A DNA stretch of 51,900 nucleotides from Azonexus sp. (GTDB lineage Bacteria > Pseudomonadota > Gammaproteobacteria > Burkholderiales > Rhodocyclaceae): positions 1 to 51,900 of the forward strand of contig JAGOBB010000016.1 of the NCBI GenBank assembly GCA_017983615.1, read 5' to 3'. The notes beneath the pieces were generated by a model that did no database searches, had not been told where the DNA came from, and saw only the letters and a list, made by a program, of their open reading frames with translations. Position numbers and translations under genes: made by a program. Of this stretch, positions 2,185-47,878 are shown piece after piece. Within the stretch, counting starts at the first letter, position 1. Each line of letters opens with the position of its first letter.

Positions 2185-2218
2185 TTTTGGCCCTTTTTTC
2201 GGGCCGACCGTAGCATTC
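2185..2218 (+). repeat. Dispersed motif, copy 1
   Basis: Perfect core CGACCGTAGCATT preceded by TTTTGGCCC and a T6 tract. It lies between the htpG terminator and the next gene. See the dispersed-motif finding. Confidence 0.85.
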
Positions 2219-2393
2219 GGTGTTTTTGCCGATCCCGGCGCTTAAATGGCTGGTTTTACGACAGTTTTTCCAGCGCGCTGGCCGACAAAGCAGTACACTT
2301 GCGGTCTTTCGAGAAACCGTCCGGCGCGTCATTGCCGCTCATGCAGTTTCACGGTTCTCCATCCCCCATTCCCCGTTTTGCAAAGGCGATTCC

Positions 2394-2882
2394 ATGCACC
2401 CCGTCCACGACGTTGACGCACTTCTTATCTGGGCCACGGCACTGGCCTCCAAGCGGCGTCCGGCCGAACTGCTGGAGATCGTCGCGGCGGCCGATCTGCT
2501 CAACAACAACGTTCCCGGCGAACTGAAAATCGTCGATGCTTTCGAGCGTCTGTCGAAGAACGGGCTGATCTGCGAAATCGACGGCGGCTATGCGCTGACC
2601 CCGGCCGCCCAGGCCATCGTCACCGATCTGCCGCGCAAGGCCGAAACGCCGGAGCGGCTGTTCGCGATCAAGGACAACCTGTCGATGTTCAACGTCAAGG
2701 GCGAGCATGCCGTGGTCGTGGTGACGGCCGAACAGGTGACGGCGGCTATTCAGGCGCATCGGGCGGCGGGCAAGACGGCCGCCAAGAATCTGCTGGTCCC
2801 CAAGCCGAAGCCGGAAGCCGAGGTGCACAAGCCGGGCCAGCGTCAGCGCAAGCCGATGCCGGCCCGCAAGCGCAAGGTCTGA
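2394..2882 (+). CDS. Uncharacterised small basic protein upstream of dbpA
   Basis: 162-aa product with no family I can name with confidence. Residues 1-80 are mostly helical and end in a short turn-and-strand stretch (LICEIDGGYALTPAAQAI), an arrangement reminiscent of a winged helix. The last ~35 residues are rich in Lys, Arg, Pro and His, as in nucleic-acid-binding tails. The ATG at 2394 is preferred because AAAGG lies 8 nt upstream; in-frame starts further up (2220) would run through the repeat motif. The stop is 7 nt before dbpA, so co-transcription and an RNA-related role are plausible but inferred from position only. Confidence 0.75.
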   Translation: MHPVHDVDALLIWATALASKRRPAELLEIVAAADLLNNNVPGELKIVDAFERLSKNGLICEIDGGYALTPAAQAIVTDLPRKAETPERLFAIKDNLSMFNVKGEHAVVVVTAEQVTAAIQAHRAAGKTAAKNLLVPKPKPEAEVHKPGQRQRKPMPARKRKV

Positions 2883-2889
2883 GCACAGC

Positions 2890-4290: not shown

Positions 4291-4297
4291 GTGCTTT

Positions 4298-4335
4298 TGA
4301 AATCACGCCAACCAATGGCGTGATTTCAATTTTGG
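4298..4335 (+). terminator. Terminator after dbpA
   Basis: A 13-bp stem, TGAAATCACGCCA (4298-4310) with TGGCGTGATTTCA (4316-4328), has a 5-nt loop and is followed by ATTTT. It lies between the convergent genes dbpA and the YgjP-type peptidase. Confidence 0.8.
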
Positions 4336-4390
4336 CTATTTTTTCCGGCCGACCCTGGGGCCAGCCGTTGTTTCTATGGTCGTAGCATTT
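4330..4390 (+). repeat. Dispersed motif, copy 2, split by 27 bp
   Basis: The left half (TTTTGGC, T-tract, GGCCGAC ending at 4353) and the right half (CGTAGCATT, 4381-4389) are both intact but separated by 27 bases (4354-4380) absent from the other copies. It overlaps the tail of the dbpA terminator. Confidence 0.7.
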
Positions 4391-6458: not shown

Positions 6459-6689
6459 ACGCTAAAAATCGGGTCAAGCCGACGAATGCTACGGTCGCCC
6501 GATTATTTTGGCCAAAATGCCAAACGCCGTATCAGTGGGATTGCTGGGCACCTGAAATGCTCGAACAGGCGGGAATTTTTCTTATCTCAAAGTATTCGCG
6601 GGCTTTTTGCAGCGTGACTATGGGTTCGCGTATATCAGAAATTTCTTCAATGGTGATTTTGAAACCATTGCCAGCTTTATAATCTAGCC
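6459..6689. other. Intergenic region upstream of the cytochrome c peroxidase
   Basis: 231 bp without a gene. It holds motif copy 3 (6484-6518, minus orientation) and a TATAAT at 6678-6683. That TATAAT would place a transcription start within a few bases of the ATG at 6690, so the mRNA may be nearly leaderless. No convincing -35 box is seen at the usual distance (6655-6660 reads GATTTT), which suggests an activator or another sigma factor. Confidence 0.5.
6484..6518 (-). repeat. Dispersed motif, copy 3 (minus orientation)
   Basis: Perfect core CGACCGTAGCATT on the minus strand, preceded on that strand by ATTTTGGCC and AAAATAAT. It lies downstream of the DUF3820 gene. Confidence 0.85.
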
Positions 6690-14402: not shown

Positions 14403-14830
14403 CCTAGCGTGGCTTTCCGGCGTACCGCATCGACATAGGCCAGCGCGTCCATCGGCTGGCCTTCGCGCTGGGCGCGCCAGATCGTTTCTCCCAGGCATTC
14501 GAGCAGCACGTGTTCCGCATCGTGCGGGTCCATCCGGGCGCGCAACTGCTCGAAAGCCATCCGGATGCCGGGTGGCTGGTTGATGCTGACCTGTTCGTGG
14601 ATGGCCAGGTGCAGTGACAGGTGCAGGAATGGATTCATCGCCCCGCCTTCTGGCATCCATTCCTTTTCAACCGCAGCGTTCGGGTCGGCAAGCATGGCCT
14701 GATATTCCGGGTGTCGGGCGGCGATGTCAGCAGCAGTGACTTCGGCGCCGACCAGCGGCAGGCGTTCGACGTGTTTTTTCCAGGCATCGCAGAAGAAACG
14801 ACGGACCTGTTCGCGGGAGGGATTAAACAT
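14399..14830 (-). CDS. DUF1841 family protein
   Basis: 143-aa protein of the DUF1841 family, found mainly in beta- and gammaproteobacteria and of unknown function. Typical family segments are present: MFNPSREQVRRFF at the N-terminus, then HPEYQAML and the His-rich FLHLSLHLAIHEQ. The ATG at 14830 is the family start. Its first 8 bases overlap the end of the FIST gene, and nth, FIST and DUF1841 form one minus-strand operon. His and Glu residues in the central helix could bind metal, but this is speculative. Confidence 0.85.
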   Translation of the reverse strand: MFNPSREQVRRFFCDAWKKHVERLPLVGAEVTAADIAARHPEYQAMLADPNAAVEKEWMPEGGAMNPFLHLSLHLAIHEQVSINQPPGIRMAFEQLRARMDPHDAEHVLLECLGETIWRAQREGQPMDALAYVDAVRRKATLG

Positions 14831-15839
14831 GGGCGCTTTCGAAGAGCAGGGTGAGGGCAGTGTTGTGGAACAGGCGGTTGCGGCCGGCCTGTGGCGCGAT
14901 TTGCCCGGAGCCATAGGCACCGAGCAGGGGCGTATCGGGGAAGGCCTCGCGGAATGCCAGCAGGTCGCGGTCGTCGTTGCCGTAGAACAGTGGCCCGCGA
15001 CCGATGCACGAAAACATCAGCGCGAAATTTGGCCGATTTTTCGGGCTTACCGTAGCATTCAGGGCGCCACGCATTTCCTGCTCTGCCGCCAGCGGCTGGC
15101 GAATCGCCCAGGTCATCGTTTCGCCCTCATTCAGCGCCTCGGCCAGCAGCAAGGAGCCGTCCCCGTTGGCGGAAAGGATGGCGATGCCCGGCTCGTCCGC
15201 ATGGCGCACGAGCGCGATCTGGTGGAGCGGCGGCTGATCGCGCAGTTCGGGCGGCAGGGCACGATACAGACTGTCGATGGCACGGTGCCCGCCGGCGCGT
15301 ACCAGCTCGTAGCCGCGACACTGCTCCACGGCCACCGCATCGCCGAGCAGGCGCAGGCCGCTTGCCCTGGCCAGACAGGCGTTCAGCCCGGGCAGGCGAA
15401 TCTCGGCACAGCCATTCTCGGTGGCCCGGCCATGCGCCCAGGCCACAGCATCGCTGTCGATCAGGCCGGCGCGGGGCGCGCCCTCCTGCCAGTCGAAGGG
15501 TAGTCGGCTGTGGCCGCTGAATGAGAGTATCGGCGAGTCGCCCGGCGCAGCTTCATCCGGCGCGGCAAAGACGAGGGCGGCGGCGGCCGGCTGGTCCAGT
15601 TGCCAGCCACGCTCGGTGAACAGGCCGCTCGCCGTGCAACCGTGGACTGACAGGCAGCCAGCTGCGCGCGCCGCGGCAAGAACGGCCGGTTGGGCATGGC
15701 GGATGAAATCGCGGCTGAGGAACAGGATGACGTTGTCGGCCCGGCTCAGTCCCGCTGCGGTCAGTGCCATGCGCACCGCCTCCTGGGCCAGATCCGGCGT
15801 CGGACGGAGGCCGCTGACCAGGCCGGTCGCCGCCTTCAT
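14823..15839 (-). CDS. FIST-domain sensory protein
   Basis: 338-aa protein with FIST_N (about 1-190) and FIST_C (about 210-325) regions. FIST proteins are proposed small-ligand (amino acid-like) sensors that sit next to signalling or metabolic genes. ATG 15839 overlaps the nth stop (ATGA), which supports this start; a longer version would overlap nth substantially. The stretch ALNATVSPKNRPNFALMF near residue 265 is encoded by dispersed-motif copy 4 read on the opposite strand. It lies between conserved FIST_C strands, apparently in a loop. Confidence 0.82.
   Translation of the reverse strand: MKAATGLVSGLRPTPDLAQEAVRMALTAAGLSRADNVILFLSRDFIRHAQPAVLAAARAAGCLSVHGCTASGLFTERGWQLDQPAAAALVFAAPDEAAPGDSPILSFSGHSRLPFDWQEGAPRAGLIDSDAVAWAHGRATENGCAEIRLPGLNACLARASGLRLLGDAVAVEQCRGYELVRAGGHRAIDSLYRALPPELRDQPPLHQIALVRHADEPGIAILSANGDGSLLLAEALNEGETMTWAIRQPLAAEQEMRGALNATVSPKNRPNFALMFSCIGRGPLFYGNDDRDLLAFREAFPDTPLLGAYGSGQIAPQAGRNRLFHNTALTLLFESAHV
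15025..15060 (+). repeat. Dispersed motif, copy 4 (inside the FIST gene)
   Basis: AAATTTGGCC, GATTTTTC and core TTACCGTAGCATTC (two differences at the start of the core). Oriented opposite to the FIST gene, in which it encodes NATVSPKNRPNF. Confidence 0.8.
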
Positions 15840-16556: not shown

Positions 16557-17966
16557 ATGCCAGATAGCACTGATGGTGGTCGAATTGCGCTGAAACAGCT
16601 GGTCGAGGGTAATCCGGTGGCGACGATCGTGGTCGACGCGCAGCACCGGGTCTCCCACTGGAACCGCGCCTGTGCCGCGCTGACCGGCGTTCCGGCCAGC
16701 GAAATGATCGGACGTTCCGAGCAATGGCGCGCCTTCTATCCATCCGCCCGGCCGATTCTCGCCGACCTGGTCATCGATGGCGCACTCGATGCGACGGTCG
16801 ATCGCTATTACCGGGGTAAATTCCGGCGTTCGGCGCTGGTTGATGATGGTTACGAAGTCGAGGATTTCTTCCCCACCTTTGGCAAGGACGGACGGTGGCT
16901 GTTCTTCACGGCTGCTCCGATCCGCAACGCGGCCGGCGAAATCATCGGCGCCATCGAAACCCTGCAGGACGTCACCGAACGGCGGCGCGCCGAGGCCGCA
17001 CTGCGCGACAGCGAAGCCTATCTGGCCCAGATCGTCGATGGCTCGTCAGTCGCCATGCTGGTCATCGATGCCGCGCATCGGGTCACCCACTGGAACCGTG
17101 CCTGCGAAGTGACCACCGGTACGCTGGCCAGTGATGTCATCGGCACCCACGATCAGTGGAAGGCTTTCTATTCTTCGAGTCGTCCGATCATGGCCGATCT
17201 CGTCCTCGACAATGCCGGTGAGAGCTCTGTCGATCGCCTCTACCATGGCCGCTACCGGCCGTCACCCCTGATCCGCGGCGGCTTCGAAGCCGAGGATTTC
17301 TTCCCGCATTTCGGCGACCGCGGTCGCTGGTTGTTTTTTACTGCCGCGCCGCTGCGCAATGCGGCTGGCGAGGTCATCGGTGCCATCGAGACCCTGCAGG
17401 ACGTGTCCGAACGCCGGCGTGCCGAGGAGGCATTGCGCGAAAGTGAGGAGCGCTATCGCAGCCTGAGCCTGACCGATTCGCTGACCGGCCTGTTCAACTC
17501 CCGCCATCTGCATGAACGCCTGCCGTCGGAGATCGAACGCGCCAACCGCTATCGGCGCCCGCTATCCTTGTTGGTGCTTGATTGCGACAACTTCAAGAGC
17601 ATCAATGACCGCTTCGGTCACCTCGAAGGCGACAAGGTTCTGCAAAGCCTGGCTGACGTGATCGGGCACTGCATGCGTCGTTCGGACAGCGCCTATCGCT
17701 ACGGCGGCGAGGAATTCGTCGTCATCCTGCCCGAGGCCGACGAGACGGCTGCCATGTCCCTGGCCGAGCGCCTGCGCGAAATGTTTGCCGGACGGGAGAC
17801 GTGTTCGCCGGATGGCGAATCGATCCGGTGCACAGTCAGCATCGGCATCGCCCGGCTGACGCTCGACGATACCGAAGTCACCCTGATCCGGCGGGCCGAC
17901 GAAGCCAGCTATGCGGCCAAGCAGCGCGGCAAGAACTGCGTCGTACTGGCCGAGTCAGCCGCCTGA
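16557..17966 (+). CDS. Diguanylate cyclase with two tandem PAS domains
   Basis: 469-aa soluble protein. Two closely similar PAS modules (about 15-140 and 155-290) share the features HWNRAC, a W-K/R-AFY motif, EDFFP and AETLQDV-like ends (GAIETLQDVTERRRAE and GAIETLQDVSERRRAE). This points to an internal duplication. The C-terminal GGDEF domain (about 305-465) has an intact active site (YRYGGEEFVV) and an RxxD inhibitory site (RRSD), so active, feedback-regulated c-di-GMP synthesis is expected. ATG 16557 has GAGGAGA about 9 nt upstream. No membrane segment is present, so the signal is intracellular. The last 12 bases overlap the convergent rlmN-family gene. Confidence 0.93.
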   Translation: MPDSTDGGRIALKQLVEGNPVATIVVDAQHRVSHWNRACAALTGVPASEMIGRSEQWRAFYPSARPILADLVIDGALDATVDRYYRGKFRRSALVDDGYEVEDFFPTFGKDGRWLFFTAAPIRNAAGEIIGAIETLQDVTERRRAEAALRDSEAYLAQIVDGSSVAMLVIDAAHRVTHWNRACEVTTGTLASDVIGTHDQWKAFYSSSRPIMADLVLDNAGESSVDRLYHGRYRPSPLIRGGFEAEDFFPHFGDRGRWLFFTAAPLRNAAGEVIGAIETLQDVSERRRAEEALRESEERYRSLSLTDSLTGLFNSRHLHERLPSEIERANRYRRPLSLLVLDCDNFKSINDRFGHLEGDKVLQSLADVIGHCMRRSDSAYRYGGEEFVVILPEADETAAMSLAERLREMFAGRETCSPDGESIRCTVSIGIARLTLDDTEVTLIRRADEASYAAKQRGKNCVVLAESAA

Positions 17967-19013
17967 TTTGCTACGAATTCGTGGTTTCAAGGTGATTTCC
18001 CGGTTCTCCGGGTCCAGGCTGCGTGCCCGCAGCTGGCCGCAGCCACCGTCCACATCCTGTCCTGCGGAATTGCGTACCGTGGTCCGGATGCCGCGACCGT
18101 GCAGGTAGCGGGCCAGCGCCGTGACGCGCTCGACCGGCGGGCGGCGATAGCTCAGCGCTGCCGTCGTATTGTAGGGGATCAGGTTCATGATCGCGTACTT
18201 GCCGGTCAGCAGGCGGACAATGCCGTCCATTTCAGCCTCGCTGTCGTTGACCCCGTCGATCAGCGTCCATTGGTACTGGATCGGGTAGCCGGTGCTGCGG
18301 GCGTAATGCTCGGCCAGGTCGACCAGTTCGGCGGGATCGATGCGCGATGCCTTGGGCAGCAGTTCGGCGCGCAGTTCGGCGCGGGTCGAATGCAGTGAAA
18401 CAGCCAGCGCCGGCTTGACCCTTTCCTGCGGCAGGCGCTCGAAAACACGCAGATCACCAACCGTCGAAAAAACCAGGTTCTTGTGGCCGATGGCGCCGGC
18501 CGTGCCGAGCAGGGCTATTGCTTCGAGCACGTTGTCCATATTGTGCGACGGTTCACCCATGCCCATGAAAACGACACGCCGCACCGTCCGCAGGCGCCGG
18601 GCCAGCACCACCTGGGCAACCATCTCGCCACTGCTTACCTGGCGCAACAGGCCGTCCCGACCGGTCATGCAGAAGGTGCAGCCGACCGCGCAGCCGATCT
18701 GCGTCGAAACACAGACGCCGTCGCGCGGCAGCAGCACGCACTCCGCCATCTGTCCGTCGGCCAGTTCGACCAGCAGGCGCGACGAACCGTCGTCGCCCGG
18801 GTGTTCGGAGCGGACGCGGGCCAGTCCGGAGAGTTCGGCGCCGAGGGCGGGCAGGGCATTGCGCAGGGCCAGCGGCAGGTAGTGCTCGGCCGGCTGCGAG
18901 CGCGGGCCGGCATCGAGCGACTTGCCTTGCGTCCAGGCGCGCAGCACACGGTCGATGTGGCAATCCCTGGCGCCGGTGGCGAGCAGGGACTGACGGATGG
19001 CTTCGAGTCGCAT
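17955..19013 (-). CDS. RlmN/Cfr-family radical SAM RNA methyltransferase
   Basis: 352-aa radical SAM enzyme. RlmN methylates C2 of A2503 in 23S rRNA and A37 of some tRNAs. The cluster motif C-x3-C-x2-C is CAVGCTFC; the SAM-binding GMGEP and the second catalytic Cys in DVDGGCGQLRA near the C-terminus are present, so the ping-pong mechanism residues are intact. It is slightly shorter than typical RlmN and lacks the ndk/pilF/ispG neighbours that usually mark the main rlmN. It may therefore be a paralogue. It lies 33 nt downstream of rnfE and is probably read with the rnf operon. Confidence 0.85.
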   Translation of the reverse strand: MRLEAIRQSLLATGARDCHIDRVLRAWTQGKSLDAGPRSQPAEHYLPLALRNALPALGAELSGLARVRSEHPGDDGSSRLLVELADGQMAECVLLPRDGVCVSTQIGCAVGCTFCMTGRDGLLRQVSSGEMVAQVVLARRLRTVRRVVFMGMGEPSHNMDNVLEAIALLGTAGAIGHKNLVFSTVGDLRVFERLPQERVKPALAVSLHSTRAELRAELLPKASRIDPAELVDLAEHYARSTGYPIQYQWTLIDGVNDSEAEMDGIVRLLTGKYAIMNLIPYNTTAALSYRRPPVERVTALARYLHGRGIRTTVRNSAGQDVDGGCGQLRARSLDPENREITLKPRIRSKSGG

Positions 19014-19046
19014 GGGAGCGCTATGCCCGCGATGGGCAAGCGAACA

Positions 19047-19736
19047 TCAGTGGCAGCCGAGTGCTTCGACCGGGGCGGGCGGCTTTAGCCGGGCCCGGTC
19101 GGCGGCCCGCGCATCCATCCAGTTCTTCCAGGCGATCAGACAGCCGAGCAGGATGAAGGCGCCTGGCGGGAGCAGGGCGAGCAGGAAACCAGGATAGCTT
19201 TCCGGCAGAACCTGGATCGGCTGCAGGCTGGGGAAGACCATGTCGATGCCGCCGAACAGCGTGCCGCTGCCAAGAAATTCGCGCAGGGCGCCGAGCAGGG
19301 CCAGCGTCCACAGCATGCCGACGCCCATGAAGATGCCGTCGAGCGTCGACTGCAGCGGCGGGTTCTTGGCGGCGAAGGCCTCGACGCGGGCAAGCACGAT
19401 GCAGTTGGTGACGATCAGCGGGATGAAGATGCCGAGCACCAGGTAAAGCTCGTGCAGATTGGCGTTGAACAGCAGGTCGACGACGGTGACCAGCGCGGCG
19501 ACGATCAGGATGAAGACCGGGATGCGGATTTCGTGCGGGATGAAGTTGCGCAGCGAGGCGACGGCGACGTTGGACAGCGCCATGACGACGATGGTGGCCA
19601 GCGACAGCATGACGCCATTGACGGCGTTGGTGGTCACTGCCAGCAGCGGGCAGAGTCCGAGAATCTGGACAATCGAGGTGTTCTGTTTCCAGATGCCATT
19701 GCGGGCGATGGTCTGCAGTTCGTCGCGGGTGATCAT
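19047..19736 (-). CDS. rnfE: Rnf complex subunit E, membrane protein
   Basis: 229-aa integral membrane subunit of the ion-translocating ferredoxin:NAD oxidoreductase. It starts MITRDELQTIARNGIWKQN and has the typical QILGLCPLLAVTTNAVNG segment, whose Cys helps bind the intramembrane [2Fe-2S] cluster shared with RnfA. About six hydrophobic helices follow. The C-terminal tail (LKPPAPVEALGCH) is slightly longer than the core family. ATG 19736 overlaps the rnfG stop. It is the last rnf gene. Confidence 0.93.
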   Translation of the reverse strand: MITRDELQTIARNGIWKQNTSIVQILGLCPLLAVTTNAVNGVMLSLATIVVMALSNVAVASLRNFIPHEIRIPVFILIVAALVTVVDLLFNANLHELYLVLGIFIPLIVTNCIVLARVEAFAAKNPPLQSTLDGIFMGVGMLWTLALLGALREFLGSGTLFGGIDMVFPSLQPIQVLPESYPGFLLALLPPGAFILLGCLIAWKNWMDARAADRARLKPPAPVEALGCH

Positions 19737-20395
19737 TTGGTCGCTCCTTCGGCAAACAGCCGGTCGCGGTTGGCCGCGGCCCACTGGGCGGCCTTCAATA
19801 CGGCCTTGGACACGGCGCGTGGGGTGACGGTTGCACCGGCGTAATGGTCGATGCGGCCGCCATCCTTCTTGACCTTCCAGTCCTTGTCGGCAGCACCGGC
19901 CAGCGGCTTGCCGGTGAACTGGGTGATCCACGGCCGGGCCTTGTTCTTGTCCTTCTTGACCTCGATGTAGTCGCCGAGGCCCGGCGTTTCCTTGTGCTGG
20001 ATGACGCGCACGCCTGCCACCTGGCCGTCGGCACGGATGGCGACGAGCAGGCGGATCTTGCCGGCATAGCCGTCCGGCGCAACAGCTTCAAAAATGGCGC
20101 CGACCGGTTGGCCAGCCTTGCGGGCGAGGAAGAGACTGCTGGTCTCGGCCAGCCCGAGTTCCGGCGTCGGCGGCAACGAGATCGCTTCCTGGAGCAGCGC
20201 GTTGTCGTACTCGGCGCGCGGTAGCACCTCGTCGATCAACTTCATTTTTTCCTCGACCGCCGAGGCCTCGATGGCCGGCTTGGTCCACAGGTAGGCGGCG
20301 GAGAGCAGGCCGGTGAAGATGATCACGAAGACAAAGAGGATTGCCGCCGTGCGTACGGCCATACCCTGGGCGGTGAAGGCGCGGACTTCGCTCAT
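19733..20395 (-). CDS. rnfG: Rnf complex subunit G, FMN-binding
   Basis: 220-aa protein with one N-terminal helix (AAILFVFVIIFTGLLSA) and a periplasmic FMN-binding domain. The covalent flavinylation motif is YAGATVTPRAV, where the second Thr carries FMN by phosphoester linkage in homologues. ATG 20395 gives the canonical RnfG length and overlaps the rnfD stop by 4 nt. A longer upstream frame is only a shadow of rnfD. Confidence 0.93.
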   Translation of the reverse strand: MSEVRAFTAQGMAVRTAAILFVFVIIFTGLLSAAYLWTKPAIEASAVEEKMKLIDEVLPRAEYDNALLQEAISLPPTPELGLAETSSLFLARKAGQPVGAIFEAVAPDGYAGKIRLLVAIRADGQVAGVRVIQHKETPGLGDYIEVKKDKNKARPWITQFTGKPLAGAADKDWKVKKDGGRIDHYAGATVTPRAVSKAVLKAAQWAAANRDRLFAEGATK

Positions 20396-21408: not shown

Positions 21409-23141
21409 TATTCGGTTTTCTCGCTGGCCGGGGCGGTCGGCTCGGGCTCGATCAGGTGGGCGGCGACGCGGCGCGCCTCGATCTCGGCGGCGGCCTGCTG
21501 CTGCTCGGGGGTCAGCGCGTCAACATTCTTGGGCTGGACTGCCTCGCGCTGGGCTTTCGCGCGGGCCATGGCGGCTTCGATGGTGGCCCGTTTTGCGTCT
21601 TTTTCGGGGGCGATCGTAGCATTTGGCGTCGGGGCGGCTTCGCCGGACGCCGGCTGTGCTTCGGCCGGCGCAGCGGCGGCCGCTGCCGCTTCGGCAGCCT
21701 TCTTGGCGGCCTGGGCGGCGGCGGCCTTGGCCAGCTTTTCGGCCTTCTCGGCCTTTTCGCGCTCTTCGCGCAATTGCTTGAATTCGAAGCGTGCCTTGGC
21801 CTGGTCGGCGGCGTTCTTCTCGCGTTCGCGCGCCCAGATCTCGCTCTTGGCGAAGCGGAAATACTGGACCAGCGGAATGCGCGACGGGCAGACGAAGGAG
21901 CAGCAGCCGCATTCGATGCAGTCGAAAATGGCGTATTCCTGCGTCTTGCCGAAATTCTTGGCGCGCGAGAACCAGTACATCTCGAAAGGCTGCAGTTCGT
22001 GCGGGCACGCCTCGGCGCAGGCGCCGCAGCGGATGCACGGCATTTCCGGCGCCTTGGGCGGGAACAGGCGTTCCGAGTGGGCAATCAGGCAGTTGGTCGC
22101 CTTGACCACCGCCACCTGGTCGTTCGGCACCAGGAAACCCATCATCGGGCCGCCCATCACGATGCCGTCGGTATCCGGGTGCGGCTGCGCCAGCTTGAGC
22201 AGTTCGCCCATCGGCGTACCGATCAGCACTTCGTAGTTGCGCGGCGCGTGGACGTTGCCGGTGACCGTGACCAGTCGGGAAACGACTGGCTCGCCGTGGG
22301 CGATGGCGCGCCAGGCGGTGTAGGCGGTGGCGACGTTGAAACACTGAACGCCGAGGTCGGTCGAGCGCTTGGCGGCCGGGACTTCCTTGCCGGTCAGCAC
22401 GCGGATCAACTGCTTGGCACCGCCGGCCGGGTAGAGCGTCGGCACCTGGACGACGGCGAAATCTTCGCCGACGGCCTGGATGGCGGCACGCATGGCGGCG
22501 GCGGCTTCCGGCTTGTTGTCCTCGATGCCGATCAGCACCTTCTCAGGCTGCAGCAGGTCGCGGAAGATGCCAATGCCACGCACGACTTCCTCGGCGCGTT
22601 CGCGCATCAGCAGGTCGTCGCAGGTGATGAAGGGTTCGCATTCGGCGCCGTTGATGACCAGCTCGGCCATCGGCACCGTCTTCGACGGCGTCAGCTTGCC
22701 GTGGGTCGGGAAGACCGCGCCGCCGAGGCCGACGACGCCGGACTGCTGCAGGTAGTTGCGGGCCGCGTCGGGCGTCGCGTTGGCGTAGTCGAAGGGCTGG
22801 TGGGCGATCCACTCGTCACGGCCGTCCGGCTCAATGACCACGCACAGGGAGTCGAGACCCGACGGGTGCGGCTGCACATGCATCGCCACCTCGACCACGG
22901 TGCCCGAAGTCGGGGCGTGCACGGCGGCCGAGATCCAGCCGTCGGCCTCGCCGATCAACTGGCCTTTCAAAACCTTGTCGCCGGCCTGGACGACCGGGCG
23001 TGGCATGCCGCCGATGCTCTGGTGCAGCGGCACGACGAGGCGCGACGGCAGCGGGGCGGCGGCGATCGGCAGGGTCACCGACTGCGTTTTGTTGGTCGGC
23101 GGCTTGACGCCGCCCTTGAACTTGAACAGGTTCATCAGCAT
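21408..23141 (-). CDS. rnfC: Rnf complex subunit C (NADH-binding, two 4Fe-4S)
   Basis: 577-aa peripheral subunit that exchanges electrons with NAD(H). It begins [15 protein letters not shown] (an internal start two codons on is possible). It has a NuoF-like NAD/FMN-binding body with a GLGGAVFPTHGKL motif. Two ferredoxin-type cluster motifs are CIRCGACAEACP (near 368) and CIECGCCSFVCP (near 408). After about residue 450 comes a long Ala/Glu/Lys-rich coiled extension of variable type, usual in proteobacterial RnfC. Dispersed-motif copy 5 lies inside this extension on the opposite strand and encodes NATIAPEKDAKRAT. Confidence 0.94.
   Translation of the reverse strand: MLMNLFKFKGGVKPPTNKTQSVTLPIAAAPLPSRLVVPLHQSIGGMPRPVVQAGDKVLKGQLIGEADGWISAAVHAPTSGTVVEVAMHVQPHPSGLDSLCVVIEPDGRDEWIAHQPFDYANATPDAARNYLQQSGVVGLGGAVFPTHGKLTPSKTVPMAELVINGAECEPFITCDDLLMRERAEEVVRGIGIFRDLLQPEKVLIGIEDNKPEAAAAMRAAIQAVGEDFAVVQVPTLYPAGGAKQLIRVLTGKEVPAAKRSTDLGVQCFNVATAYTAWRAIAHGEPVVSRLVTVTGNVHAPRNYEVLIGTPMGELLKLAQPHPDTDGIVMGGPMMGFLVPNDQVAVVKATNCLIAHSERLFPPKAPEMPCIRCGACAEACPHELQPFEMYWFSRAKNFGKTQEYAIFDCIECGCCSFVCPSRIPLVQYFRFAKSEIWAREREKNAADQAKARFEFKQLREEREKAEKAEKLAKAAAAQAAKKAAEAAAAAAAPAEAQPASGEAAPTPNATIAPEKDAKRATIEAAMARAKAQREAVQPKNVDALTPEQQQAAAEIEARRVAAHLIEPEPTAPASEKTE
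21591..21624 (+). repeat. Dispersed motif, copy 5 (inside rnfC)
   Basis: TTTTGCG, a TCTTTTTC tract and core CGATCGTAGCATTT (one internal change). Oriented opposite to rnfC, within its low-constraint C-terminal extension. Confidence 0.75.
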
Positions 23142-23701: not shown

Positions 23702-23705
23702 GGGG

Positions 23706-25455: not shown

Positions 25456-25978
25456 CGCTTGAGGCGCGTCTTACTTTCTTTTGCTTCGCCAAAAGAAAGG
25501 TAAGCAAAGAAAAGGCGACCCTGGGTCGGCGCCGGCTTCGCCGGTTCCCTGCGCTACTCGGTTGACGCGGGGGCTGCGGAACTCGGCCCTGCGGGCCTCA
25601 GACAGTCCTCGCCCTTTTTCCGCGCCAGCCTGCGTTGCTCGGCGCCTCCCAAGGGGCCCGGTGAACCATCCGGACTCGACCGCCGGCTTTTTTTGATTTT
25701 GGCCTTTTTTTGGGGTCGACCGTAGCATTCCGTTTCCCGGACAGGATTTCGATCCCGGACGCCTTTCGGGTCCCCCTGAGAGGCGCTGAGCAACGCAGCG
25801 GCTGGCGGAAAAGGGGCGAGGACTGTCTGAGGGGCGTAGCCCCGAGTTCCGCAGCCCCCGCCAGTGGCGAGTAGCGCAAGGGACCGGCGCAGCCGGCGCC
25901 GACCCGGGGGTCGCCTTTTCTTTGGCTACTTTCTTTTGGCGAAGCAAAAGAAAGTACGCCCGCCCTCAAGGCGGAAAG
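25456..25978. repeat. Long imperfect inverted-repeat element (~520 bp)
   Basis: Left arm about 25456-25650 and right arm about 25781-25978 are near reverse complements over some 195 nt, with a ~130-nt spacer. Each outer end also carries its own hairpin, TACTTTCTTTTG / CAAAAGAAAGTA (near perfect on the left, perfect on the right). Shared inner blocks include AAAGAAAAGGCGACC, GGTCGGCGCCGGC, GGGGGCTGCGGAACTCGG and CAGACAGTCCTCGCCC. No transposase gene is inside. It looks like a non-autonomous, MITE-like or structured-RNA repeat. Confidence 0.85.
25695..25730 (+). repeat. Dispersed motif, copy 6 (inside the inverted-repeat spacer)
   Basis: GATTTTGGCC, a T7 tract and the perfect core CGACCGTAGCATT. 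It lies in the non-repeated centre of the long inverted repeat. Confidence 0.85.
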
Positions 25979-26124
25979 CAAAGTTTGAGAAAACCACCCA
26001 ACGCATCATGCGAATGCTTTCTTGATCTGCGCCGATGGCAGCGACGGCCAGTTCAACGATAATCCGCTGATTCTGAAACAATCAGAAACGCCTAATTCCC
26101 CCCGCCAAGGCTAAACTTCTGCCC

Positions 26125-27513: not shown

Positions 27514-28751
27514 AACGTATCGGCAAGATTCTGATCGGAGTGAGCGTGGCCGCCGGGCTGATCGGCGGCGGCGTCTGGTACGCCAAGCAGCGCGAGGCGC
27601 AGAAGCCGGAAGCGCGCTACAAGCTGGCGGCGGTCGAGAAGGGCGACGTGACGCAGACGGTGTCGGCCAACGGCACGCTCAACCCGGTCGTGCTGATCAG
27701 CGTCGGTACGCAGGTGTCGGGCACGGTCAGGAAGCTCTACGTCGATTTCAACGACAAGGTCAAAAAGGGGCAGGCGCTGCTCGAACTCGACGACGCGCTG
27801 GTTTCGGCGACCGAACGGCAGAGCGCGGCCAATGTCGTCAACGCCCAGGCGACGCTGGAACTGGCGCAGGCCAACGAGGCGCGGATGAAGTCGCTGCTCA
27901 CCCAGGAGTACGTCTCGAAGCAGGAGTACGACCAGGCCAGCCAGGCGCTGAAATCGGCCCGGGCCCAGGTGGCGCTGGCCAAGGCGCAGAACGAGCGCGA
28001 CCGGGCCAACCTCAATTTCACGGTGATCCGCTCGCCGGTGGACGGCGTGGTCATCGACCGCGTCGTCGATCTCGGCCAGACGGTGGCGGCCAGTTTCCAG
28101 ACGCCGACGCTGATCAAGATCGCCCAGGATCTGTCGGAAATGCGTATCGACACCAGCTTTGCCGAGGCCGACATCGGCGGCATCCGCGAAGGCCAGAAGG
28201 CGCGCTTTACGGTCGATGCCTTCCCGAACCGCCATTTCACCGGCGATGTCCAGCAGATCCGCCTGAACCCGACCAACCAGCAGAACGTCGTCACCTACAA
28301 CGTCCGCATCAACGTCGCCAATCCGGAAGAAGTCTTGCTGCCGGGCATGACGGCCTATGTCAATATCGGCGTCCAGAAGCGCGAAGGCGTGCTACTGGTG
28401 CCGAACGCCGCGCTGCGCTTCAAGCCTGCCGATCCAGCCGACAAGAAAGCTGAAAATGGCCCTAAAAACGGGCCGACCGTAGCATCGGTGCCGACGCCGG
28501 GATCGGGCGCCGGCGCCGACGGCAGCGCTCCGAAAGGCCCCGCCAAGGGCAAGAAGCGCGACGGCCAGAGCGGCACGGTCCACGTGTTGGCTGGCGACGA
28601 GATCAAGCCGGTCAGCGTCCAGCTCGGCATCACCGACAACCGGATGACCGAGATCGTTGGCGGCGAGCTGAAGGAAGGCGAGCGCGTCGTCACCGGCGAG
28701 AACAGCAACGGCGTCAAGCCGCCGTCCTCGGTCGGCATGCGGATGTTCTGA
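27510..28751 (+). CDS. macA: Periplasmic adaptor (membrane fusion protein) of a MacAB-type exporter
   Basis: 413-aa MacA-like adaptor. An N-terminal signal anchor (ILIGVSVAAGLIGGGVWY) is followed by a lipoyl half-motif (VGTQVSGTVRKLYVDFND), an alpha-hairpin (about 105-165), the second lipoyl half (VIRSPVDGVVIDRVV) and a beta-barrel. Between the barrel and the membrane-proximal domain lies an unusual Pro/Gly/Lys-rich insert of some 50 residues (about 310-355). Its start is encoded by dispersed-motif copy 7. The first and last bases overlap the flanking genes. Confidence 0.92.
   Translation: MKRIGKILIGVSVAAGLIGGGVWYAKQREAQKPEARYKLAAVEKGDVTQTVSANGTLNPVVLISVGTQVSGTVRKLYVDFNDKVKKGQALLELDDALVSATERQSAANVVNAQATLELAQANEARMKSLLTQEYVSKQEYDQASQALKSARAQVALAKAQNERDRANLNFTVIRSPVDGVVIDRVVDLGQTVAASFQTPTLIKIAQDLSEMRIDTSFAEADIGGIREGQKARFTVDAFPNRHFTGDVQQIRLNPTNQQNVVTYNVRINVANPEEVLLPGMTAYVNIGVQKREGVLLVPNAALRFKPADPADKKAENGPKNGPTVASVPTPGSGAGADGSAPKGPAKGKKRDGQSGTVHVLAGDEIKPVSVQLGITDNRMTEIVGGELKEGERVVTGENSNGVKPPSSVGMRMF
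28452..28485 (+). repeat. Dispersed motif, copy 7 (inside the adaptor gene)
   Basis: GAAAATGGCCC, TAAAAACGGG and CGACCGTAGCATC (last core base changed). In sense orientation it encodes ENGPKNGPTVAS within the low-complexity insert. Confidence 0.75.
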
Positions 28752-32035: not shown

Positions 32036-32051
32036 TGGCCGGTGAAATTTC

Positions 32052-32087
32052 GATTTTGGGCATTTTTTTCGGCCGACCGTAGCATTC
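32052..32087 (+). repeat. Dispersed motif, copy 8
   Basis: GATTTTGGGC, a T7 tract and the perfect core CGACCGTAGCATT, 17 nt after the flavoprotein stop. The rest of the 210-bp gap to the next gene shows no other recognisable feature. Confidence 0.85.
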
Positions 32088-34501: not shown

Positions 34502-34537
34502 GAATGCTACGGTCGGCCTCAAAAAAAGGCCAAAATC
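34502..34537 (-). repeat. Dispersed motif, copy 9 (minus orientation)
   Basis: Minus strand: GATTTTGGCC, a T7 tract and the perfect core CGACCGTAGCATT. It lies between the convergent acylphosphatase and MliC/YbaY genes and would serve as the only T-rich tract there. Confidence 0.85.
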
Positions 34538-34559
34538 AAAATTTTCCAGCGGTTCCGAT

Positions 34560-40169: not shown

Positions 40170-41186
40170 TTATTTGAATCCGACGCGGTCGAAAATGATC
40201 TGGGCCTTGGCTTGGTACATCGCCAGATTCTTGACCGGCAGCTTGTCGGCCTTGAATTTGCCGAGCGAGTCCAGCGCCGGATTGGCGATCTTCACGCTGG
40301 CGACGGCCGGCCATTCGTTGTTGCCATCGGCAAAATAGGCCTGGGCCTGGTCGGAGGCAAGATATTCCAGGAACTTGATTGCGGCGTCCTTGTGCGGCGC
40401 CGTCTTCAGCATGCCGCCGCCGGAAACGTTGATGTGGGCCCCGTTACCGCCCTGGTCCGGCCAGACGATGCCTACTTTCTCCATCAGTTTTTGCTCTTCT
40501 GGCTTGGCCGACCGTAGCATTCTGGCCACATAGTAGGTGTTGGAAATGGTGACGCCGCATTCGCCGGCAGAGACCGCCTTGATCTGGTCGGTATCCCCGC
40601 CCTTCGGGGCGCGTGCGAAATTGGCCACCATGCCGCGGGCGATTTCTTCGGCCTTGGCTTCGCCCTGATGCGCGATGATTGAAGCCATCAGCGACAGGTT
40701 GTACGGATGCGAACCCGAGCGCGAGCAGAACTTGCCCTTCAGCTTCGGATTGGCCAGGTCGGCATAGTTTTGGACGTCTTCCGGCTTGACAGTAGCCTTG
40801 TTGTAGACGATGACCCGGGCGCGGGTCGAGAAGGAAAACCAGTCTTCGGTGCGCAGGTGGGCCGGGATACGGGATTCCAGCAGTTTGGAGGTGACTGGTG
40901 CGAACAGGCCCAGTTCGTGGGCCTTGGCCAGACGTGCGGCGTCGACAGTCAGGAAGACGTCGGCCGGGCTGTTGGCGCCTTCGTTCTTTATCCGTTCGAG
41001 CAGTTCGTCTTCCTTGCCTTCGATGCGGTTGATCTTGATGCCGGTCTGTTGCGTGAAGTTGGCGTAGAGCGCTTCATCGGTCTGGTAGTGCCGGGCGGAA
41101 TAGAGATTCAGGGTGTTTTCCTGAGCGATGGCGGGGTGGCTGAAAACGGCGATCGCGGCGGCGACCAGGACGGGCATCGACTTCAT
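40170..41186 (-). CDS. fbpA: Ferric iron-binding periplasmic protein
   Basis: 338-aa Fe3+ substrate-binding protein of the FbpABC importer. A signal peptide (MPVLVAAAIAVFSHPAIAQ) precedes the class II periplasmic-binding fold. Key parts are NLYSARHYQTDEALY at the N-terminus, SPADVFLTVDAARL, and the iron-binding Tyr pair in NTYYVARM. Start 41186 has GGAG 8 nt upstream. Dispersed-motif copy 10 lies antisense within the gene just after the Tyr pair, encoding RMLRSAKPEEQKL with rare AGA and CTA codons. Confidence 0.94.
   Translation of the reverse strand: MKSMPVLVAAAIAVFSHPAIAQENTLNLYSARHYQTDEALYANFTQQTGIKINRIEGKEDELLERIKNEGANSPADVFLTVDAARLAKAHELGLFAPVTSKLLESRIPAHLRTEDWFSFSTRARVIVYNKATVKPEDVQNYADLANPKLKGKFCSRSGSHPYNLSLMASIIAHQGEAKAEEIARGMVANFARAPKGGDTDQIKAVSAGECGVTISNTYYVARMLRSAKPEEQKLMEKVGIVWPDQGGNGAHINVSGGGMLKTAPHKDAAIKFLEYLASDQAQAYFADGNNEWPAVASVKIANPALDSLGKFKADKLPVKNLAMYQAKAQIIFDRVGFK
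40488..40522 (+). repeat. Dispersed motif, copy 10 (inside fbpA)
   Basis: GTTTTTGCTCTTC tract, then GGCTTGGC and the perfect core CGACCGTAGCATT. Antisense to fbpA. Confidence 0.8.
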
Positions 41187-41300: not shown

Positions 41301-41303
41301 CGA

Positions 41304-45158: not shown

Positions 45159-45193
45159 AAAGCCCGCCGGCAAGTTTGTCGGCGGGCTTTTTT
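45159..45193 (+). terminator. Rho-independent terminator of prpE
   Basis: AAAGCCCGCCG (45159-45169) pairs with CGGCGGGCTTT (45180-45190) and is followed by further T residues, 18 nt after the prpE stop. Confidence 0.9.
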
Positions 45194-45272
45194 GCGACTG
45201 TCGTGTAAGAATCGACGAGCGGTAGGGGTGTTAGAATGGCCGCCAGACCTACCTTTGCGTTGTTTGCTGCTG

Positions 45273-46775
45273 ATGATTTACGAAACCGTTGCTGCTGTCG
45301 ATCTGGGTTCCAATAGTTTCCGCCTGCAGGTAGGGCGGGTGGTCGACGACCAGATTTATACGCTGGACTCAATGAAGGAGCCCGTCAGGCTCGCTTCCGG
45401 CCTGATGCCCGACAAGCGGCTGGATGCCTCGGCGCAGGCGCGGGCGCTGGACGCCTTGCGTCGTTTCGGTGAGCGTCTCGGGGGACTGGACAAGGGGGCG
45501 GTTCGGGCCGTGGCGACCAATACCCTGCGTGTTGCCAAGAATGCCGTCGAATTCCTGCCGCTGGCCGAGCAGGCCCTCGGCTTTCCCATTGAAATCATTG
45601 CCGGTCGCGAAGAAGCCCGCCTGATCTACATCGGCGCTTCGCACTCCTTGCCGAGCGCGGCGCACAAGCGGCTGGTCATCGATATCGGCGGCGGTTCCAC
45701 GGAGTTCATCATCGGCAAGCGGCACGAGCCGCAATTGATGGAATCCCTGTACATGGGATGCGTCAGCTATACGCTGCGTTTTTTCCCGGATCGCAGGATC
45801 GACAAGAAGCGGCTGCGCGAAGCGCAGATTGCGGCAGCCAAGGAAATCGAACTGATTGCCCACGACTATCAGCGTCTGGGCTGGAAGGAGGCGGTCGGCT
45901 CCTCCGGTTCGGCGCGAGCGATTGCGGATGTGCTGGAGTTGAACGGGCTGAATCCGAATGGCGAAAGCGGTATTACGCGGGTCGGGCTCGACCGGCTCTG
46001 TGCCATGCTGATCAAGGCTGGGTCGGCCGAAGCGCTGGATCTGCCGGGGATCAAGGGTGACCGCTTGCCGGTATTCCCGGGCGGGATCGCCATCATGTCG
46101 GCGATTTTCGAGGAACTGGACATCGAGCGCATGTCGTATGCCGATGGCGCGCTCCGCCTCGGCGTGTTGTATGACCTGCTTGGCCGTTTCCATCATCACG
46201 ACATGCGCGATTCGACGGTGACCCAGTTCCGGCGCCGCTATCAGGTCGAGGGCGACCAGGTCGAACGTGTCGAGGCCACGGCGCTGTCGGCGCTGACCCA
46301 GTTGTCGGATGGTTCGCCGTCGGAATCGGATGTGCAGTTCCTGTCTTGGGCTTGCCGCTTGCATGAAATCGGCATTTCGGTGGCGCACAACGCGTATCAC
46401 AAGCACGGGGCTTATGTGCTGACCTACGCCGATATGCCCGGATTTTCAAAGAAGGATCAGGCGCGGCTGGCCATGTTGGTCCTCGGGCATCGTGGGAAGC
46501 TGGAAAAACTGGGCGGTGTTCCGGTGGACGACAGCGCCTGGAACCTGGTGTTCTGCCTGCGCCTGGCCGTGCTGCTGCACCGCACCCGGGACGACAGGGC
46601 AATGCCGGCTTGGCGGGTGATGCGCAGTGGTAACGGCTTCCTGATCGAGCTGCCATCCGACTGGCTGGCAGACAACCCCTGGACAGCTGCGGCCTTCAAG
46701 GAAGAGTCCAGCGTCTGGAAGCAGATTGGACGGGAATACATCGTCAAATCCAAGCCGACAAGGAAGCCGGTGTGA
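45273..46775 (+). CDS. ppx: Exopolyphosphatase (Ppx/GppA family)
   Basis: 500-aa phosphatase of the ASKHA fold that trims inorganic polyphosphate (or acts on pppGpp). Motifs include AAVDLGSNSFRLQVGRV (phosphate 1), DIGGGSTEFIIG (phosphate 2), VGSSGSARAIADVL, and a C-terminal HD-like region (LHEIGISVAHNAYHKHG) typical of long Ppx proteins. ATG 45273 is taken by homology to the family N-terminus; no strong Shine-Dalgarno is seen. The stop overlaps the mlaE-type permease start (GTGA), an unexpected link between polyphosphate metabolism and lipid transport. Confidence 0.92.
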   Translation: MIYETVAAVDLGSNSFRLQVGRVVDDQIYTLDSMKEPVRLASGLMPDKRLDASAQARALDALRRFGERLGGLDKGAVRAVATNTLRVAKNAVEFLPLAEQALGFPIEIIAGREEARLIYIGASHSLPSAAHKRLVIDIGGGSTEFIIGKRHEPQLMESLYMGCVSYTLRFFPDRRIDKKRLREAQIAAAKEIELIAHDYQRLGWKEAVGSSGSARAIADVLELNGLNPNGESGITRVGLDRLCAMLIKAGSAEALDLPGIKGDRLPVFPGGIAIMSAIFEELDIERMSYADGALRLGVLYDLLGRFHHHDMRDSTVTQFRRRYQVEGDQVERVEATALSALTQLSDGSPSESDVQFLSWACRLHEIGISVAHNAYHKHGAYVLTYADMPGFSKKDQARLAMLVLGHRGKLEKLGGVPVDDSAWNLVFCLRLAVLLHRTRDDRAMPAWRVMRSGNGFLIELPSDWLADNPWTAAAFKEESSVWKQIGREYIVKSKPTRKPV

Positions 46776-47878
46776 GTGAAACTCCCCGCTTGCATGTCGA
46801 GCCGGGGAAAGTGGTGCTTTCCGGTTGCTGGACGCTGGCCGGCATGTTGCCCCAGTTGAGTGTTTTGCAGAGTGAATTGGCCGAGTGCGCGCATGTTGCC
46901 GACGACTGGGACTTGTCGGCGGTCACGCGCCTGGACAGCGCAGCCGCGGTCCTTCTGTGGCGGACCTGGGGCGGCACCTGGCCGGCGCACCTGAACATTG
47001 GCGCGCTGCATCGTCAGGTGCTCGCCCGGGTTGCCGAATTGCCTAGGGAAATGCCTGCGCCACCGGTCCATCGAATCCTGTTTCCAGAATTCGTCGGGAC
47101 CGTGTTGCTCAAGGCATTGGCCAATCTGCAGGGCATGATCGCCCTGTTCGGGCAGCTGCTGCTCGATACCCTCTATCTCTTCCGGCACCCAGCCGAGGTA
47201 CCGTGGAAGGAGCTTACGGCCAATGTTTACAAGGCCGGGGCGCAGGCCCTGCCGGTTACTGCACTGGTTGGCTTCCTGATCGGGGTGACCATCAGCTATC
47301 TGTCGGCTCTGCAGCTCAAGAGCTTCGGGGCCGATGTGTTTATCGTCAATATCCTCGGCATCTCGATCATTCGCGAACTCGGGCCGGTACTGGTGGCGGT
47401 GCTGGTCGCCGGGCGCTCCGGTTCGGCGATGACCGCCCAGATCGGCGTGATGCGGGTGACCGAGGAGATCGATGCGCTGTCGACAATGGGCATTTCACGC
47501 AGCCTGCGGGTGGTTTTGCCCAAAATTTTGGGGCTGACCGTAGCATTGCCGCTGCTGGTGCTGTGGACGTCGGCGGTCGCCCTGTTTGGTGGCATGCTGG
47601 CTGCCCTGCTGCAACTGGACCTGTCGCTGATCTATTTTCTGGACAACCTGCCCCGTGCCGTGCCCGTGGCGAACCTGGTCATTGGGTTGAGCAAGGGGGT
47701 GGTGTTCGGCTTCGTCATTGCCGTCGTCGCCTGCCACTTCGGCCTGCACGTCAAACCGAATACGGAAAGCCTGTCGGCCAATACGACCAGCGCGGTGGTG
47801 ACGGCGATTACCACGGTGATCCTGATCGACGCGATATTTGCCATCTTCACCCGCAACGTCGGGGTGCCGCAGCTATGA
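46772..47878 (+). CDS. MlaE-family ABC permease with N-terminal STAS-like domain
   Basis: 368-aa inner-membrane permease of an MCE-type lipid transporter. An N-terminal ~95-residue cytosolic domain (with WDLSAVTRLDSAAAVLLWRTW) looks like a STAS domain. It is followed by the interfacial helix and MlaE core: LVGFLIGVTISYLSA, GISIIRELGPVLVAVLVAGRSG and MRVTEEIDALSTMG are canonical. The GTG start overlaps the ppx stop. Dispersed-motif copy 11 lies in sense within a transmembrane segment (LPKILGLTVALPLL). Confidence 0.92.
   Translation: MSETPRLHVEPGKVVLSGCWTLAGMLPQLSVLQSELAECAHVADDWDLSAVTRLDSAAAVLLWRTWGGTWPAHLNIGALHRQVLARVAELPREMPAPPVHRILFPEFVGTVLLKALANLQGMIALFGQLLLDTLYLFRHPAEVPWKELTANVYKAGAQALPVTALVGFLIGVTISYLSALQLKSFGADVFIVNILGISIIRELGPVLVAVLVAGRSGSAMTAQIGVMRVTEEIDALSTMGISRSLRVVLPKILGLTVALPLLVLWTSAVALFGGMLAALLQLDLSLIYFLDNLPRAVPVANLVIGLSKGVVFGFVIAVVACHFGLHVKPNTESLSANTTSAVVTAITTVILIDAIFAIFTRNVGVPQL
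47521..47547 (+). repeat. Dispersed motif, copy 11 (inside the MlaE-type gene)
   Basis: CAAAATTTTGGGGC followed by TGACCGTAGCATTG (first and last core positions changed). Sense orientation; encodes KILGLTVAL with GTA and GCA codons that are uncommon here. Confidence 0.7.

Follow-up and report, generated by a model that had tools for sequence, protein, structure and literature searches.

A dispersed core-plus-AT-tract motif in Azonexus and its relatives as a probable DNA uptake signal

Why DNA uptake signals exist is disputed, and the hosts of one group of them, the DUS of Neisseriaceae, are betaproteobacteria. In the available part of a 2025 paper, Neisseriaceae and Pasteurellaceae are the sole families named as having such signals (PMC12616744; this and the other papers are cited for their available sections). 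The Pasteurellaceae USS (Hin AAGTGCGGT, Apl ACAAGCGGT) combines an asymmetric core with two one-sided AT-rich segments in one-turn steps and exists in two types; it occurs in many copies, some of them in genes, and its perfect copies outnumber the near-perfect ones, a mark of uptake sequences (PMC1626085). Its inner core is GCGG (PMC12616744). The Neisseriaceae DUS (GCCGTCTGAA and its dialects) shows dialects following phylogeny, serves secondarily at terminators, and goes with ComP-type pilins (PMC3630211; PMC12616744), and is described without flanking AT segments in the available part of PMC1626085.

With the USS, the motif that we describe in Azonexus sp. shares an asymmetric core (CGACCGTAGCATT) with two AT-rich tracts on one side, upstream (centres about 9 and 20 nt away in the first 30 copies of the source genome, G000), a large number of copies, some of them in genes, an excess of perfect over near-perfect copies, and the existence of distinct types, here called dialects. 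Its core (13 nt) is longer than that of the USS, a distance of about 11 nt separates its tract centres where the USS has 12, and its near tract starts 5 nt off the core instead of adjoining it. Moreover, the host is not a member of the Pasteurellaceae but belongs to another class, Betaproteobacteria (the 16S of G060, a genome of the same genus, is Rhodocyclaceae-like). This 16S shows 0 mismatches to the Rhodocyclaceae probe RHC175, and 1, 2, and 2-4 mismatches to probes for Azoarcus, Azonexus/Dechloromonas, and Accumulibacter, respectively; among plasmid-borne rRNA genes, it is most similar (89.7%) to that of Niveibacterium microcysteis, of the Rhodocyclaceae. Dialects and ComP-type pilins recall the DUS, from which the motif differs by its AT tracts and by its core: the DUS core looks unlike the dialect cores by eye, and CTG is absent from both strands of CGACCGTAGCATT. 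Among the matches listed by our literature search, uptake sequences in this bacterial group are not reported, 12-mer and 14-mer forms of the core returned unrelated subjects only, and neither a Verminephrobacter paper nor the Dechloromonas aromatica genome paper describes, in its available sections, an uptake sequence of its own. From the anatomy and the distribution of the motif, we infer that it is likely a DNA uptake signal sequence, which would act as an own-lineage tag in natural transformation.

Copies in the window and in the source genome

The window is the whole stretch of 51,900 nt that was analysed. Scanning it for mismatches recovered the six perfect cores that an earlier note on this DNA had counted (2205, 6485 on the minus strand, 25717, 32074, 34503 on the minus strand, and 40509), three cores with one mismatch (21611, 28474, and 47535) and one with two (15047). 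With a split copy, read in the printed sequence, all eleven copies listed in that note are present (its plus-strand coordinates begin 14-22 nt ahead of the core). Gene calls agree with its counts, placing five copies in genes (15047, 21611, 28474, 40509, and 47535) and the other six between genes, and the upstream AT tracts it had described accompany the copies, although just the far tract is clear at 40509. Three further matches with two mismatches were found (16788 on the minus strand, 9679, and 48913), for 1.2 such matches expected by chance in the window. We rejected 9679 and 48913, which have no clear tracts and whose number fits this expectation; 16788, where both A/T tracts are properly positioned, probably represents a twelfth copy in degenerate form. 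The copies are as follows.

2179..2217, plus strand: full motif, perfect core at 2205-2217, intergenic, directly behind a hairpin and T-run
4324..4389, plus strand: split copy, intergenic, AT tracts and CGACC (4350-4354) separated by a 27-nt interruption from GTAGCATT (4382-4389)
6485..6523, minus strand: full motif, perfect core at 6485-6497, intergenic
15021..15059, plus strand: variant TTACCGTAGCATT, core at 15047-15059, antisense within gene 14823-15839
16788..16826, minus strand: probable degenerate copy CGACCGTCGCATC, core at 16788-16800, antisense within gene 16557-17966
21585..21623, plus strand: one-mismatch copy, core at 21611-21623, antisense within gene 21408-23141
25691..25729, plus strand: perfect copy, core at 25717-25729, located centrally in a dispersed palindromic repeat of about 560 bp
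28448..28486, plus strand: one-mismatch copy, core at 28474-28486, sense within gene 27510-28751
32048..32086, plus strand: perfect copy, core at 32074-32086, convergent genes on either side
34503..34541, minus strand: perfect copy, core at 34503-34515, convergent genes on either side
40483..40521, plus strand: perfect copy, core at 40509-40521, antisense within gene 40170-41177, far tract clear and near tract not clear
47509..47547, plus strand: one-mismatch copy, core at 47535-47547, sense within gene 46844-47878

A plasmid search with 86 bases around the first of these copies gave partial matches only, over its first 30 bases. TTTTNNGGCCGACCGTAGCATT has 0 matches in viral_contigs, a count that says little, its weight hanging on the host coverage of this set.

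The earlier note had considered that the genome-wide count might be near chance. Instead, G000 carries 382 perfect copies of CGACCGTAGCATT (189 forward and 193 reverse), for 0 copies of the reversed control and a chance expectation of 0.09. This amounts to one copy per 7.6 kb, a density below that of the Haemophilus and Neisseria uptake sequences. Another 134 copies are singly mismatched, giving 516 within one mismatch. Perfect copies thus outnumber singly mismatched ones (382 versus 134, for dialect A only), which counts for an uptake sequence by the mark given in PMC1626085.

The note had also observed that nine of its eleven copies point along the plus strand and proposed, as an alternative, a strand-orientation signal. 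Such a signal would be FtsK-orienting or Chi-like and follow the replichores. The excess holds inside the window but is local only, as forward and reverse copies are balanced genome-wide. Similarly, sampled G000 sites are oriented 29 to 36 relative to local GC skew, and 20 places sampled along the G070 chromosome, a single contig, give 39 to 42. When eight sampled genomes are pooled, the G-rich and C-rich strands carry 119 and 125 sites, although two of these genomes are nominally uneven in opposite senses (12:3 in G064 and 16:33 in G085). Some single-contig genomes appeared to carry the motif almost exclusively on the plus strand among the matches listed; since a minus-strand site of G030 is absent from these matches, and since the 20 G070 stretches show no bias, we rejected this extreme bias as a listing artefact. 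Balanced orientations are in keeping with an uptake sequence. A strand-orientation signal is therefore extremely improbable, and the strong orientation towards the terminus that is typical of KOPS was not seen in the genome-wide counts or the GC-skew samples. KOPS, Chi, MatS, and parS are also short motifs, frequent or dispersed on chromosomes, and are strand-biased or confined to domains, unlike the Azonexus motif, which is unbiased and even where sampled.

Across five G000 contigs, copies are evenly spaced (CV 0.68, P 0.0004) and their density is uniform. Even spacing counts for an uptake sequence. Both features also speak for a site to which a nucleoid-associated or chromosome-organising protein binds, evenly spread and tolerated chiefly between genes, and AT tracts beside an asymmetric core would fit a DNA-bending protein. 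However, an excess of perfect over singly mismatched copies is unlike the usual protein sites (PMC1626085).

Among the 65 sampled G000 sites, 39 are intergenic and 24 lie inside genes. Convergent gaps are favoured, with 14 sites in 11.4 kb (1.23 per kb) versus 3 in 10.2 kb of divergent gaps (0.29 per kb). Exact-dialect sites are intergenic in 12 of 21 cases in G085, 6 of 11 in G073, and 10 of 18 in G070. This intergenic excess does not hold throughout: the figure is just 3 of 18 in G030, where non-coding DNA makes up 14%. A hairpin and T-run precedes 9 of the 39 intergenic G000 sites versus 27 of 420 control places (P 0.002), as might be expected of a global transcription regulator site or of a part of terminators. 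Yet no such hairpin is found at the other 30 intergenic sites, the intragenic sites are numerous, and few sites lie between divergent genes, the home of promoters; moreover, terminator use is a secondary role in known uptake sequences (PMC12616744). We thus consider a regulatory or terminator function very improbable. Finally, intragenic exact-dialect sites prefer one orientation (42 to 19, P 0.004), as also described for known uptake sequences (PMC2346458); this bias is absent in G070 when dialect-blind sites are counted, 20 of them being antisense and 24 sense.

Dialects within the genus and the origin of copies

Several dialects exist in the genus, and GACCG and the AT tracts are common to them. 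Dialect A (CGACCGTAGCATT) occurs in three species; others include dialects B (GGTYGACCGTAGCA) and D (GTCGACCGCRGCA). Read on the opposite strand, dialect D is TGCYGCGGTCGAC and holds the GCGG of the USS, where dialects A and B have ACGG. Counting from the G of GACCG, the far tract lies at -23..-18 in dialects A, B, and D and in G061, and the near tract, at -12..-7, is strongly developed in A and B but less so elsewhere, being weak in dialect D. The two-segment plan of the USS is thus shared, with a weak near segment in D. Phased tracts, the absence of which had been contemplated in the earlier note, are thus present both in other genomes of the genus and in the logo made from the first 30 copies of the source genome. 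These profiles were obtained in two ways. An iterated weight matrix recovered the motif in G000, G085, G073, G064, and G030, but it drifted to codon periodicity in G061, G063, G066, and G032 and yielded just 16 weak sites in G060. These last five genomes were judged by anchored profiles and word counts instead, which revealed no motif in G066 and G060.

With a dialect-blind pattern, 44 of the 76 genomes of the genus score far above control, and the remaining 32 are at intermediate or background level. In 373 genomes from 67 sister genera, the same pattern gives at most 24 matches per genome, and CGACCGTAGCATT, sought beyond the genus in 393 genomes of the order, is found in 18 of them, as a single copy each. 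In the samples searched, the motif is confined to the genus. We placed the dialects on a tree of the comEC domain, which covers 68 of the 76 genomes and, being based on one gene, is a weak proxy for the species tree. Dialect A forms one clade (100/99), dialect B requires 3 changes and dialect D 10, and all dialect labels together require 25 changes versus 41.3 when shuffled; the weak-signal label shows no clustering on this tree. With this weak proxy, dialects are congruent with phylogeny. A dialect that shifts inside a genus, together with background levels in several clades and in the 67 sister genera sampled, would be odd for housekeeping chromosome biology, and a chromosome-organising protein is an unlikely explanation of the motif.

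The motif could also be a short repeat of the MITE or REP-like kind, mobile or copied, and have spread by transposition. Indeed, the perfect copy at 25717 sits in the dispersed palindromic repeat mentioned above, and the motif is central in each of the three distinct copies of this repeat in the examined G000 DNA. However, the flanks of the 65 G000 sites share no stretch longer than 45 bases, except for one pair and one overlap between neighbouring sites; the motif is therefore not always embedded in a longer mobile repeat, another outcome foreseen in the earlier note. In addition, where orthologous places with homologous sequence were found, they can be aligned over the site either gaplessly or with gaps of 1-4 bases, and several differ by point changes, each fitting the dialect of its own genome. 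For example, the ortholog of 15047 carries the same variant TTACCGTAGCATT in G094 and GGTTGACCGTAGCAGT in G085 and G073, and the ortholog of 34503 (minus strand) is found in G073 and G085, each with its own dialect. Similarly, the alignment is gapless at the ortholog of 40509, where G030 has its own CCGCAGCATT form. Such sites, and flanks that are unrepeated apart from one pair, indicate that copies arise by mutation rather than by insertion, and a mobile repeat is highly improbable.

Uptake signal and competence genes

If the motif is an uptake signal, the type IV pilus competence machine would, through its surface DNA receptor, prefer DNA carrying the tag of the cell's own lineage. Receptor contacts would fall on the asymmetric core (inner GACCG / CGGTC), and the two AT-rich tracts, at distances of roughly one and two helical turns, may ease bending or melting at outer-membrane passage. 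Point mutation would create copies, which would accumulate if motif-bearing fragments are taken up and recombined more often. Copies would drift along with the specificity of the receptor, yielding dialects, and would decay once competence is lost. The motif would then probably represent a third, independently evolved family of uptake signals, comprising four or more dialects and, apparently, repeated losses within one genus. It would have converged on the Pasteurellaceae plan of a core plus two phased AT tracts, and one dialect also on the Pasteurellaceae GCGGT core. Such a family would provide a natural experiment on receptor-signal co-evolution, with 76 genomes in one genus, and would also inform on the mechanical need for phased AT tracts and on the birth and decay of signals. 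It would suggest a rule for transforming these bacteria, namely to put the right dialect into the DNA.

Our search for competence genes covered the ComEC domain and PF16732 only. A ComEC domain is found in 71 of the 76 genomes of the genus, including G000. The other five, of which one is motif-rich and four are not, gave no match and were excluded because all are under 90% complete. A ComP_DUS-type pilin (PF16732) scores above cut-off in seven of the eight genomes searched, the motif-poor G060 among them, and there are minor-pilin clusters with FimT-, PilV-, PilW-, and ComP-like reading frames (named by eye, except for PF16732). We also considered that comEC decay might track motif loss, which the counts do not show: split, truncated, or two-piece matches occur in 3 of the 44 motif-rich genomes versus 4 of the 32 others (P 0.45), and some of the split matches span two contigs, perhaps through breaks in the assembly. 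In the motif-rich G002, the comEC matches lie about 34 kb apart.

Abundance and anatomy of the motif

The 13-nt core CGACCGTAGCATT occurs in six perfect copies in the window, as the earlier note had counted, and sites with at most two mismatches number 13, against 1.2 expected. The window's own genome (G000; 2.92 Mb assembly in 34 contigs, 86% complete) carries 189 perfect cores in forward and 193 in reverse orientation, where chance predicts 0.09 and a reversed control pattern yields 0 matches. The plus-strand tilt noted in the window is absent genome-wide. As 516 copies have at most one mismatch, 134 are singly mismatched.

Upstream A/T-rich tracts, also claimed earlier, accompany most window sites (numbered by core start), typically in the order ATTTT-GGCC-n-TTTTTT-nGGGC followed by the core. 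At 40509 only the far tract is clear, and inspection of the surrounding sequence revealed no tracts at 9679 and 48913; both are in place at 16788, a site missing from the earlier list. One copy, at 4324-4389, retains its tracts but is interrupted: 27 bases separate CGACC from GTAGCATT. It adjoins a hairpin plus T-run. A logo of the first 30 G000 copies confirms the phased tracts: upstream of the core, positions -21 to -17 and -11 to -6 are mostly T or A, and G-G-C-C lies between the two stretches. Read on the reverse complement, the core AATGCTACGGTCG comes first and two AT-rich tracts follow, with centres about 9 and 20 bases away; their spacing of 11 is close to one helical turn.

Dialects and clade limits

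Word counts run without reference to the motif recover the same place in other genomes of the genus.

Top words in motif-blind counts (G numbers denote genus genomes)
G085, G073: GGTTGACCGTAGCA
G030, G032: GTCGACCGCAGCA
G061: GTCGACCGTG, consensus cacgGTCGACCGTg in an anchored profile; other top words come from repeats
G063, G064: GTCGACCGCT, weak
G060, G066: no motif word

Whole-genome counts of GGTYGACCGTAGCA reach 326 in G073, 304 in G085, 222 in G074, 138 in G070, 119 in G084 and 106 in G090 (controls: 0 or 1), and those of GTCGACCGCRGCA reach, among others, 267 in G030, 245 in G032, 204 in G086 and 195 in G065 (controls for these four genomes: 0 to 3). A pattern blind to dialect (five A/T, then 14 bases, then GYYGACCG) is high in 44 of the 76 genus genomes; another 11 are intermediate and 21 stand at background level, "high" being set in this analysis at 100 or more matches and at least five times the genome's own control.

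Profiles were anchored in ten other genus genomes. The far tract is 62-76% A+T in seven of them, measured at their best-populated GTYGACCG anchors (G085, G073, G061, G063, G064, G032, and G030; control anchors: 33-44%), and 53% in G094 (19 places, GCCGACCG). It was not seen in the profiles of G066 (32%) or G060 (39%, or 52% at nine places with GTTGACCG). The near tract, strong in dialects A (the G000 form) and B, is weak in the others. The G061 consensus cacgGTCGACCGTg (stretches L167-L170) is palindromic, so that only the AT tracts would set the orientation in this genome, which has 804 dialect-blind matches.

Orthologous sites tend to carry the form of the genome in which they lie. Site 34503, for instance, reads GGCCGACCGTAGCATT in G000 and GGTCGACCGTAGCAAT in G073 and G085, and site 40509 reads CCGTAGCATT in G000 and CCGCAGCATT in G030, with no core at the latter's orthologue in G094, G073 and G085.

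ComEC-domain nucleotide sequences from 68 of 76 genomes (the remaining eight had no match or only short pieces) gave a tree on which dialect A forms one clade (100/99), and B requires three changes, D ten and motif-free genomes seven. All labels together require 25 changes versus 41.3 when shuffled, on an arbitrary root, with labels assigned in this analysis and with a single gene, which does not amount to a species tree; the weak-signal label alone shows no clustering. This pattern suits an old genus signal with dialect changes and several losses.

Outside the genus, 18 of 393 genomes (in an order sample of 399) have a perfect core, always in one copy. Among 373 genomes from 67 other genera (in a family sample of 395), dialect-blind counts stay at or below 24, and controls in the same genomes go up to 26. 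A form with 27 specified bases matches three assemblies in the species collection: Loclat_bin-15563 (taken to be G094, as the site context is identical), AG28 and CTSoil_120, the last once, inside a dispersed palindrome. G495, from another genus of the family, has 14 dialect-blind matches versus 3 in its control. Several of the 14 combine GGTCGACCG with full tracts, and there is one inverted pair; perhaps this genome received DNA from the window's genus or has an old connection to it.

Genomic placement

In 447.5 kb of G000 (20 sampled stretches plus the window), 39 of 65 perfect sites are intergenic, 24 lie in genes and 2 at edges, an intergenic excess (P 1e-18) given a 13% non-coding share by a simple custom gene caller. 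Density is 1.23 sites per kb in convergent gaps, 0.76 in tandem and 0.29 in divergent ones, and a hairpin plus T-run precedes 9 of the 39 intergenic sites versus 27 of 420 control places. For exact-dialect sites, the intergenic share is 12 of 21 in G085, 6 of 11 in G073 and, in G070, 10 of 18; such enrichment is not general, as G030 has 3 of 18. Intragenic exact-dialect sites pooled over five genomes are antisense in 42 cases versus 19 sense, a bias not seen at G070 dialect-blind sites (20 antisense, 24 sense).

On the five G000 contigs with a complete site listing, sites occur at uniform density (chi-square 1.1). They are spaced more evenly than random placement would give (CV 0.68, P 0.0004), gaps below 1 kb making up 2.8% versus 13% expected. 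Orientation shows no bias against GC skew in G000 (29 to 36), G070 (39 to 42) or eight pooled genomes (119 to 125); G064 (12:3) and G085 (16:33) are nominally uneven, in opposite senses.

A mobile repeat is a very unlikely source of the motif, since flanks are, one pair apart, not shared: the 300-bp flanks of the 65 G000 sites, with the site masked, gave nine similar alignments in all. Four of these concern the only pair of sites in a longer repeat (25717 and one other, sharing a palindrome of about 560 bp), one joins neighbouring sites with overlapping flanks, and four are 24-45-base fragments. Where homologous sequence was found in G094, G085, G073 or G030, the alignment runs through the orthologous place either ungapped or with gaps of only 1-4 bases.

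The palindrome itself (25436-25998, imperfect) has relatives matched in both orientations, at no fewer than 9 places in G029, 6 in G094, 17 in G073 and 18 in G085. The motif is at its centre in three distinct copies in the G000 DNA covered and in copies in AG28, G094 and CTSoil_120; a G061 copy lacks it there. Elsewhere in the window, a minus-strand gene run (17955-24290) resembles, by eye, an Rnf electron-transport cluster.

A candidate DNA uptake signal

The motif, whose abundance, anatomy, placement, dialects and clade limits are directly observed, is probably a DNA uptake signal. According to PMC1626085, the Pasteurellaceae uptake signal sequence (USS) joins a core of strong consensus to two AT-rich segments spaced by roughly one helical turn, the same plan as here. 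Host and dialect A core differ from those of the USS, and the core also differs from the Neisseriaceae DNA uptake sequence; we suggest that the motif may work like a USS, and claim no membership in that family. The receptor would contact GACCG, AT tracts may assist bending, and copies would spread by transformation and decay once competence goes, although a comparison of broken comEC with the motif was negative for such decay.

The ComEC domain was detected in 71 of 76 genus genomes, among them all 51 of good quality. In G002 (contig C33) and G088 (contig C1), about 32-34 kb separate two pieces of the match, as though a large insertion had interrupted comEC (the smaller G002 piece is below cut-off); G002 is motif-rich and G088 is not. 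A ComP_DUS-type pilin scores above cut-off in seven of eight genomes and does not single out the receptor, because motif-poor G060 has one. Six such pilins sit in minor-pilin clusters, beside genes that by eye resemble ispH or rpsT.

Finally, inverted motif copies overlap at GGTCGACC in G030 (e.g. stretch L106 near 10950), forming a hairpin. Two overlapping pairs are among the matches listed for G030; the arrangement recalls the inverted pairs of uptake sequences that occur at terminators.
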